NCBI GenBank assembly: GCA_003389385.1
Contig: QQVM01000020.1
Span: 1 to 64,000 of the forward strand
DNA length: 64,000 nt
Reading direction: 5' to 3'
DNA from: Bacteroidota bacterium
GTDB lineage: Bacteria; Bacteroidota; Bacteroidia; AKYH767-A; 2013-40CM-41-45
This document shows, one piece after another, positions 17,288-20,520 of this stretch. A model generated the notes under the pieces. That model ran no database searches. It was given only the letters and a program-made list of their open reading frames with translations, and had not been told where the DNA came from. A program made the position numbers and the translations under genes. The number at the start of each line of letters is the position of its first letter. Position 1 is the stretch's first letter.

Positions 17288-17341
17288 TCTTTCATCCCGA
17301 TAAATGTTTTATAGACTGATTCGGGAATTGACTTGACCCTC

Positions 17342-18067
17342 ATGAACGTCAAGTTCGCATTTCAAACATTACAGATGAAAAAAGATCAAAAGAAAAGCGG
17401 TTCCGTTTCTCAAGCCCGCAAACATGTTTCCCTTGAAAATATTGAGTACAACACTCAAAGGACTCGCATGTTTTTTTCTGAATATGGCAGAAACATCCAA
17501 AGAATGGTGGACAAAGCGCTACTGATTGAAGACAGGGAAAAAAGAAACAAAGCAGCTCAAAACATAGTGAATGTGATGAGTTACCTGAATCCTCAGGTAA
17601 GGGAACTGGAAAACTACAAGCATAAACTTTGGGACCATCTTTTCATGCTGTCAGATTATAAGCTTGACGTGGATTCTCCATATCCAAAACCTGAGAAGGA
17701 ATCATTCACATCCAAGCCAAAGAGAATCTCTTATCCATCAAGCCGGATTAAATACAAGTACTATGGAAAAGTGATGGAGGATATGATTGGGAAAATTTCA
17801 AAACTCGATGAGGGAAAATCGAAAGAACAAATTTCTCAAAACCTGGCTAACTTCATGAAGATGTCCTACCTGACCTGGAACAAGGACACAGTAGATGATA
17901 CAACCATCCTTAGTCACTTGAAAGAATTGAGTGATGATCAGTTGAAGCTCCATGAGTCTGCCAGGCTTAATCATACCGCAGAGATTCTTGCAATGAATAA
18001 GGAGAAACTAGCTCGTGAAAATGCGGCAAGAAAGAAAGTGAACAAGAGAAAAGTCAGAAAAAAATAA
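17342..18067 (+). CDS. DUF4290 family protein
   Basis: The segment IEYNTQRTRMFFSEYGRNIQRMVDKAL, then IEDREKRNKAAQ and NYKHKLWDHLFMLSDYKLDVD, is characteristic of DUF4290, a Bacteroidota-specific family with no known function that is usually found beside murA. The C-terminus is a basic, helical tail (ARENAARKKVNKRKVRKK) that could bind nucleic acid. ATG 17342 is given; ATG 17375 (MKKDQKKSG) fits the family start equally well. The desaturase gene sits between it and murA here. Confidence 0.85.
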   Translation: MNVKFAFQTLQMKKDQKKSGSVSQARKHVSLENIEYNTQRTRMFFSEYGRNIQRMVDKALLIEDREKRNKAAQNIVNVMSYLNPQVRELENYKHKLWDHLFMLSDYKLDVDSPYPKPEKESFTSKPKRISYPSSRIKYKYYGKVMEDMIGKISKLDEGKSKEQISQNLANFMKMSYLTWNKDTVDDTTILSHLKELSDDQLKLHESARLNHTAEILAMNKEKLARENAARKKVNKRKVRKK

Positions 18068-18129: not shown

Positions 18130-19095
18130 ATGTATAGAGCGGATTTTACTTATTCCAGCGAACCTGAACCACATAAGCAAAGAACAAAGCAAATCCTCAG
18201 AGAGCATCCTGATGTAAGAGAGCTTATTGGAAAAAATCCCTACACACTCTTTTCAATTATTTTCTGTGTTGCCTCCATGATTCTGCTATCATGGCTGCTG
18301 AAAGACTCACCCTGGTGGATGGTTTTCCTTGCTTCTTATTTTATCGGCGCATTCTTCAATCACGCATTGTTTGTCCTGATTCATGAATGTTCACATAACC
18401 TTCTCTTCAAGGGCAAAACTGGAAATTATCTCGCCTCAATTCTGGCTAATCTTCCTCACACATTGCCTAGCGCGATTTCATTTGCGCGATATCACCTGAT
18501 GCATCATTCATATCAGGGAAATCACAGGAAAGATGCTGACCTCCCTGAGTTTTGGGAAGCAAAGGTTTTCGGATACAATTTTTTCAGCAAGGCTCTTTGG
18601 CTATTGCTCTTTCCGATATTTCAGGTGATCAGGATAACCAGAGTGAAAGACGTAAAAGTGTTTGATGGCTGGATCATTTTTAACTGGCTGGTACAACTCG
18701 CCTTCAACGTCGCAATCTGGTATTTCTTCGGACCTAAGGCATTTTTCTTTTTGCTGCTGAGCTTCTTTTTTTCTGTTGGACTGCATCCGCTTGGAGCAAG
18801 ATGGATTCAGGAGCATTATCTTACTCTCGATGATAATCAGGAAACATACAGTTACTATGGCGGACTCAACAAACTGGCTTTTAATGTAGGATATCACAAT
18901 GAACATCATGACTTTCCGTCGGTACCTTGGAACAAGCTTCCTGAAGTCCGAAAAAAAGCACCTTCCTTTTATGAATCTCTGAAATATCATCAGTCCTGGA
19001 CTCGGCTTTTTTTCAGATTTCTTTTTGATCCTTCCATCACCCTTTTTAACCGTGTTCTTCGCGACGAAAAAGAAACGTCAAGTCCGAAATCCTGA
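18130..19095 (+). CDS. DEGS-like sphingolipid delta4-desaturase (membrane fatty-acid desaturase)
   Basis: This is a membrane di-iron desaturase. The three His boxes are HECSH (85-89), HLMHH (122-126) and HNEHH (256-260). The N-terminus (DFTYSSEPEPHKQRTKQIL.. then HPDVRELIGKNPYT) resembles the Lipid_DES segment specific to eukaryotic dihydroceramide delta4-desaturases. The C-terminal stretch GLHPLGARWIQEHY, ETYSYYGGLNKLAFNVGYH and HHDFPSVPWNKLP also follows the DEGS pattern. Length (321) and box positions nearly match human DEGS1 as I recall it (323 aa). Predicted reaction: a trans-4 double bond in the long-chain base of dihydroceramide, with an electron donor not found here. Four or more membrane helices are visible. 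A general acyl-lipid desaturase role cannot be excluded. Confidence 0.85.
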   Translation: MYRADFTYSSEPEPHKQRTKQILREHPDVRELIGKNPYTLFSIIFCVASMILLSWLLKDSPWWMVFLASYFIGAFFNHALFVLIHECSHNLLFKGKTGNYLASILANLPHTLPSAISFARYHLMHHSYQGNHRKDADLPEFWEAKVFGYNFFSKALWLLLFPIFQVIRITRVKDVKVFDGWIIFNWLVQLAFNVAIWYFFGPKAFFFLLLSFFFSVGLHPLGARWIQEHYLTLDDNQETYSYYGGLNKLAFNVGYHNEHHDFPSVPWNKLPEVRKKAPSFYESLKYHQSWTRLFFRFLFDPSITLFNRVLRDEKETSSPKS

Positions 19096-19206
19096 GAGGG
19101 ATCACATAGACCTTTCGTTTGATTTTGTTCAAAACTTTCAGCGGATAAATTCTGGTGCTGCATTGTATGCTTTTATTTCGTGATGTCATTAAATACATTT
19201 GTTTCT

Positions 19207-20520
19207 ATGGGAAACAGTTTTGAAGTAACAGGAGGCCTGGAGCTTAGAGGTGAATTGGTGCCGCAGGGTGCGAAAAATGAAGCCTTGCAAATCATTTGCG
19301 CAACTCTTCTCACTGAAGAGAAGGTGATCATTCGCAATATTCCGGATATAAGGGATGTAAACAAACTCATTGAGTTATTGCAGGTACTTGGAGTTGAAGT
19401 GGAACAACTTGGGGTGCTGAAAGGCGAGTTCTCTTTCCGCGCTAAGAATATCAATCTGGGTTTTCTGAAAACTCCTGAATTCAGGAAGATGTCGGCAGCA
19501 TTACGTGGTTCAATCATGATCGTTGGTCCGCTGCTCGCAAGATTTGGAAAGGCGAGTATTCCCAAACCGGGCGGAGACAAAATCGGGAGACGACGACTGG
19601 ATACTCATTTCATAGGATTTCAAAATCTAGGCGCACGTTTTGTGTACGATGAACATACCAGCTTTTACAGCGTAGAATGTGATAAACTGAAAGGAGCTTA
19701 CATGCTTCTTGATGAAGCTTCGGTTACTGGTACGGCAAATATCATCATGGCTGCTGTTCTGGCCGAAGGCACTACCACAATCTACAACGCAGCCTGTGAG
19801 CCTTATATCCAGCAGCTTTGCAAAATGCTCAACAGGATGGGTGCGAAGATTTCTGGAATTTCATCAAACCTCCTCACTATCGAAGGGGTCGGTTCGCTCA
19901 GAGGGACAGAGCACAAACTACTTCCTGACATGATTGAAATCGGTTCTTTCATCGGACTTGCTGCGATGACAAAATCGGAAATAACAATCAAAGAAGTGGG
20001 CTATGAACACCTCGGAATTATACCTGACGTCTTTCGGCGCATGGGTATCCGAATGGAACTAAAGGGTGATGACCTGTTCATTCCGCGTCAGGAGAATTAT
20101 GAAATCGATACTTATATAGACGGTTCAATCATGACCGTGGCAGACGCTATCTGGCCAGGCTTCACACCCGACTTGCTGAGTGTAATCCTTGTAACAGCAA
20201 CCCAGGCCAATGGAACAGTGCTCATTCACCAGAAAATGTTTGAAAGCAGGCTCTTCTTTGTCGATAAGCTGATTGATATGGGTGCTCAGATAATTCTCTG
20301 CGATCCACACAGGGCCACCGTTATTGGCCTTAACCGTAAGGTGCCTCTGAGAGCCATTCAAATGACTTCTCCGGACATTCGTGCGGGTGTAGCCCTGCTC
20401 ATTGCTGCAATGTCTGCAAAAGGAAAAAGTGTCATTCATAACATAGAGCAGATTGACAGAGGATATCAGCGTATCGATGAACGACTTAATGCCATTGGCG
20501 CAGGAATTGTCAGAGTCTAA
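19207..20520 (+). CDS. murA: UDP-N-acetylglucosamine 1-carboxyvinyltransferase MurA (Asp-type)
   Basis: MurA transfers enolpyruvate from PEP to UDP-GlcNAc, the first committed step of peptidoglycan synthesis. The motifs PQGAKNEALQIICATLL near the start, RKMSAALRGSIMIVGPLLAR, and late TSPDIRAGVALLIAA are standard. The catalytic loop reads KPGGDKIGRRRLDTH, with Asp (codon 19576-19578) at the position of E. coli Cys115. This predicts intrinsic fosfomycin insensitivity. ATG 19207 (MGNSFEVTGG) fits the family; an ATG at 19183 would add eight residues. Confidence 0.95.
   Translation: MGNSFEVTGGLELRGELVPQGAKNEALQIICATLLTEEKVIIRNIPDIRDVNKLIELLQVLGVEVEQLGVLKGEFSFRAKNINLGFLKTPEFRKMSAALRGSIMIVGPLLARFGKASIPKPGGDKIGRRRLDTHFIGFQNLGARFVYDEHTSFYSVECDKLKGAYMLLDEASVTGTANIIMAAVLAEGTTTIYNAACEPYIQQLCKMLNRMGAKISGISSNLLTIEGVGSLRGTEHKLLPDMIEIGSFIGLAAMTKSEITIKEVGYEHLGIIPDVFRRMGIRMELKGDDLFIPRQENYEIDTYIDGSIMTVADAIWPGFTPDLLSVILVTATQANGTVLIHQKMFESRLFFVDKLIDMGAQIILCDPHRATVIGLNRKVPLRAIQMTSPDIRAGVALLIAAMSAKGKSVIHNIEQIDRGYQRIDERLNAIGAGIVRV

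Follow-up and report, generated by a model that had tools for sequence, protein, structure and literature searches.

A DEGS-family desaturase in a Bacteroidota bacterium for which a sulfonolipid is a better supported product than a ceramide

Ceramide and dihydroceramide differ in animals by a single 4,5-double bond. The stretch of Bacteroidota DNA analysed here (64,000 nucleotides, "the window") encodes a membrane desaturase of the family that introduces this bond, which raises the question of the lipid on which such an enzyme would act in a bacterium. A sequence-only reading of the locus had proposed that the gene lets its host make true ceramides. The gene, its motifs and its two neighbours are as follows.

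17333..18067, + strand: gene of a DUF4290 protein, upstream neighbour (PF14123, 234.9 bits)
18130..19095, + strand: Lipid_DES-type membrane desaturase, 321 amino acids, ATG start (PF08557 and PF00487)
18136..18243, + strand: Lipid_DES N-terminal motif, residues 3-38 (PF08557 match)
18382..18396, + strand: His box 1, HECSH, residues 85-89 (both His identical in 119/119 homologues)
18493..18507, + strand: His box 2, HLMHH, residues 122-126 (three His identical in 119/119 homologues)
18895..18909, + strand: His box 3, HNEHH, residues 256-260 (three His identical in 119/119 homologues)
19180..20520, + strand: murA, downstream neighbour (TIGR01072, 440 bits; GTG start listed, ATG at 19183 also possible)

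Pfam searches with the window protein gave a match to PF08557 (Lipid_DES) over residues 3-38, at 46.3 bits against a cut-off of 23 (E 2.8e-12), and to PF00487 (FA_desaturase) over residues 62-284, at 100.1 bits (E 2.4e-28). An approximate human DEGS1 sequence, good for a lead only, aligned with 316 residues of the protein (36% identity, 213 bits). The same query gave no significant alignment to the two other FA_desaturase-type proteins of the window genome (contigs C19 and C9); a separate DesA-like acyl desaturase is encoded on C19. The acyl desaturase model NF052548 scored very weakly on the window protein (22.7 bits against a cut-off of 500). Taken together, the Pfam result and the DEGS1 alignment favour the DEGS family over the acyl-lipid desaturases, bearing out the earlier assignment. 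As judged by sequence, it is a member of the sphingolipid delta4-desaturase (Lipid_DES/DEGS) family. It is the product of the sole Lipid_DES gene in the window genome (3.36 Mb, 24 contigs, completeness 100%, contamination 0.11), and a profile search of 14 control genomes found no Lipid_DES in any of them.

The three His boxes lie exactly at the residues given in the sequence-only reading. Among 119 homologues compared, none departs from the window protein at ten His residues in or near the boxes (85, 89, 122, 125, 126, 219, 229, 256, 259 and 260), and His-78 is kept in 117 of the 119. The AlphaFold2 model (mean pLDDT 88.9) has the membrane di-iron fold of AlkB and SCD1. In structural comparison the model matched two chains from FtsHi motor complexes of chloroplasts best, followed by AlkB (Z 15) and, more weakly, SCD1 (Z 7). 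Neither phmmer nor a profile search found a solved structure belonging to the family by sequence.

The family is an ordinary and widespread one in Bacteroidota. Relatives are encoded in 574 genome stretches in a scan of genome contigs; the best 80 of these are 59-75% identical to the window protein and nearly all are labelled Bacteroidota. Lipid_DES was found in 40 of 395 sampled Bacteroidota genomes. An overlapping ORF masked one relative (L263, genome G387), which tblastn confirmed at 51% identity. We note a 6.5 kb contig (L076, JAKEEU010000231.1) that bears the label candidate division KSB1 and encodes a desaturase at 60% identity; this is either a transfer or a misbinned contig. A 54-sequence tree groups the window protein with members of its own family of hosts (support 100/99) and separates the major host groups into clades of their own; the desaturase tree is largely vertical. 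Four sequences from another class (L086-L089; genomes G191, G089, G262 and G187, family f25) have higher Lipid_DES scores than the others (61-69 bits), are 43-49% identical to the approximate human DEGS1 sequence and are the nearest bacterial rows to it in the tree. They may offer a clue to where the eukaryotic enzyme arose.

The PF14123 and TIGR01072 matches confirm that the gene sits between those of the DUF4290 protein and murA, a position from which insertion or transfer had been suggested. The order DUF4290-desaturase-murA-TlpA-grpE-dnaJ is common to the window genome, to a second genome of its genus (G395) and to three genomes of other genera in the same family (G399, G400 and G403). The conserved block thus spans four genera, and uvrD lies upstream wherever the contig extends far enough; in G397 and G398 the desaturase gene is sited elsewhere. 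Any insertion of the gene between DUF4290 and murA would therefore predate the split of the genera of G395, G399, G400 and G403. A recent isolated transfer or insertion was rejected on the distribution, the largely vertical tree and the shared gene order, and that part of the earlier suggestion is not supported. A phage or plasmid origin was likewise rejected: there were no matches in viral contigs (by protein or alignment), plasmids, phages (query L086) or PHROGs, and the viral contigs yielded no eukaryotic-like desaturase reference. The neighbourhoods do not point to a substrate. No link to lipid genes emerged from 80 named loci and another 26: the annotated recurrent or adjacent neighbours are unrelated to lipid-base synthesis, and none of the additional 26 has an alpha-oxoamine synthase near the desaturase.

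The base-forming enzymes of the host are more informative. The window genome encodes four alpha-oxoamine synthases (AOS; TIGR01825). L083 scores 615 bits to 7U7H, 573 bits to 28eh (a solved cysteate-C-fatty acyltransferase) and 247 bits to the serine palmitoyltransferase (SPT) 3A2B; 7U7H is the published SulA of A. finegoldii (PMC9304779). L083 is thus of the SulA/CFAT type, with cysteate acyl-ACP transferase as its closest match. Of the others, L082 is a glycine C-acetyltransferase (Kbl, 681 bits), and L084 is of the BioF type and lies beside ORFs that read as BioB-, BioD- and BioA-like. The fourth (L085:1390-2658, + strand, contig C5) is divergent, being nearest to PRK07505 at 244 bits, below the cut-off of 342; on the SPT model it scores 146 bits against a cut-off of 640. 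The best score of any AOS of this genome on that model (NF047600, SerpalmtaseCFB) was 371 bits, for Kbl, and L083 scored 317 bits. The search for SPT genes proposed in the sequence-only reading therefore found no recognisable one in this 100% complete genome (NF047600, E<=1e-125), a result that the reading had itself named as counting against it. With no recognised SPT, with a SulA-type enzyme present and with the other AOS assigned otherwise or divergent, the proposal that the gene allows true ceramides is left without support.

The sulfonolipid (capnine/sulfobacin) pathway of Bacteroidota comprises cysteate synthase, SulA/CFAT and 3-ketocapnine reductase. The presence of a SulA-type enzyme and the absence of a recognised SPT lead us to expect that the host should make capnine-based sulfonolipids, as far as its gene content can tell. 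The cysteate synthase model TIGR03844 had no match in the window genome, though the Bacteroidota enzyme may fall outside its reach. The SulA-like gene is closely followed downstream by a START_2 (START-like) protein (L226:10767-11171, + strand, contig C7) and an LptF/LptG permease, a possible link to lipid handling.

Co-occurrence of the desaturase with the two base-forming enzymes was counted in 98 genomes of the same class (read as Bacteroidia from the names of the nearest records), a sample uncorrected for relatedness. Desaturase-positive genomes make up 8/10 of those with both SulA and SPT, 7/81 of those with SulA only and 0/7 of those with SPT only. Each of the 15 desaturase genomes of this sample carries SulA; the 7 genomes in which SPT occurs without SulA are all desaturase-negative (Fisher p 0.0023, uncorrected for relatedness). 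Within the order (31 relatives, again uncorrected) the desaturase was found in 8 of 9 genomes with SPT or SPT-like genes against 5 of 22 without. These counts point in two directions: no desaturase of the class sample occurs without SulA, and SPT strongly raises the frequency of the desaturase. Since genomes with SPT are far richer in desaturase, dihydroceramide may be the usual substrate of the family. In other classes, 17 desaturase genomes have no SulA match and have an SPT-like AOS; two such AOS were tested and score 373-398 bits to the solved Sphingobacterium-type SPT. In these classes the SPT-like AOS was discarded as a marker, being near-universal (297/395 sampled genomes overall, E<=1e-125). 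Closer to the window genome, the same-family genomes G398, G400 and G403 (99-100% complete) have the desaturase and a SulA (82-90% identical) and no SPT. In the same-genus genome G395 (L178 and L217; 99% complete, 60 contigs) the desaturase is in the same context and neither SulA nor SPT was found; an assembly gap possibly accounts for the missing base-forming enzyme.

The gene does not look like a relic in hosts with SulA only. The desaturases of every such host checked retain all of the ligand His residues, and the differences between the genes of the window genome (G000) and G400 fall at codon positions 1, 2 and 3 in the proportions 27, 15 and 58%. Substitutions mostly at third positions and the kept ligands point to a gene under constraint and not decaying, with a codon pattern as under purifying selection. 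On the simplest reading of the counts, enzymes of this family can accept either base, and a sulfonolipid is the remaining candidate in SulA-only hosts.

In the scheme we favour, the SulA-type enzyme would condense cysteate with acyl-ACP to give the long-chain base. Given that the base would be made in this way, capnine or N-acylcapnine is the likeliest substrate of the desaturase. The DEGS-family di-iron enzyme, supplied by a presumed electron donor, would then remove hydrogens at C4/C5 of the base, next to the C3 hydroxyl, this bond position being suggested by the family. The product would be a 4,5-unsaturated sulfonolipid, desaturation being preferred here to hydroxylation. Such a double bond is carried by the rosette-inducing factor RIF-2 and by the halocapnine of Salinibacter. 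An unsaturated sulfonolipid is thus the probable product, at chances that we put at about even, the substrate being inferred; it is better supported in the window organism than a ceramide, which is an unlikely product there. The broader proposition is more tentative and we hold it somewhat less than evenly likely: that an old Bacteroidota DEGS family serves both sphingolipids and sulfonolipids and is, in SulA-only lineages, the missing desaturase for unsaturated sulfonolipids.

The same enzyme could instead be a dihydroceramide delta4-desaturase as in animals, its substrate arriving by an unrecognised route such as the divergent AOS L085, a promiscuous SulA or scavenging. The identity of the family, the strong co-occurrence with SPT across class and order and the presence of L085 as an unassigned AOS all speak for this; it nevertheless seems unlikely, although the least so of the alternatives, as neither the complete window genome nor three relatives that keep the gene have a recognised SPT, L085 falls far short of the SPT cut-off and is nearest to PRK07505, and the SPT-only genomes of the class have no desaturase. 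The orphan position of the gene in its neighbourhoods, together with the apparent absence of either base-forming enzyme from G395, would also suit action on the acyl chain of another lipid (e.g. an N-acyl amino acid lipid or a 3-hydroxy fatty acid) and not on a long-chain base. That we regard as rather less likely again: the N-terminal Lipid_DES motif scores above its curated cut-off, and the genome already encodes a separate acyl desaturase, the DesA-like protein of C19, which shows no similarity to DEGS1.

A further alternative concerns the chemistry. Desaturases and hydroxylases of the membrane di-iron fold have His boxes in common, and animal DEGS2 is bifunctional. Hydroxylation at C4, or both activities as in DEGS2, would yield a 4-hydroxy base in place of the double bond, and the hydroxylase AlkB is among the closest solved folds to the predicted model. 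The approximate sequence of DEGS1, which is mainly a desaturase, aligns with the window protein over its full length, and we consider hydroxylation the least probable of these options.

Should the sulfonolipid reading hold, it would name a gene for the sulfonolipid desaturation step, for which we found no assigned gene. A search of open-licence papers, itself weak evidence of absence, found neither a bacterial dihydroceramide desaturase nor a sulfonolipid desaturase. A bacterial family spread over hosts with SPT-like enzymes only, with SulA only and with both would, in addition, be relevant to how the animal enzyme originated. Sulfonolipids themselves act as signals: in choanoflagellates, rosette development is set off by RIF-1 (PMC3463246), and immune effects in animals have been reported (PMC9304779, PMC11211663).

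The closest known systems are the DEGS1-type enzymes of animals, fungi and plants (PF08557 with PF00487), whose domain make-up, length, His boxes and HNEHHDFP run are the same in the window protein. Unlike these, the window protein is bacterial and its host has SulA and no recognised SPT, so the substrate is probably a sulfonolipid; nor is the eukaryotic electron chain of DEGS to be expected for it. The acyl-lipid or acyl-CoA desaturases (DesA, SCD1) and AlkB share the membrane di-iron fold and three His boxes with the window protein but are without the Lipid_DES motif. In the literature searched, no desaturase was found described for the sulfonolipid pathway of Bacteroidota. The host likewise has the SulA/CFAT of that pathway, whose genes lie dispersed over the genome, in line with a published account (PMC11211663).
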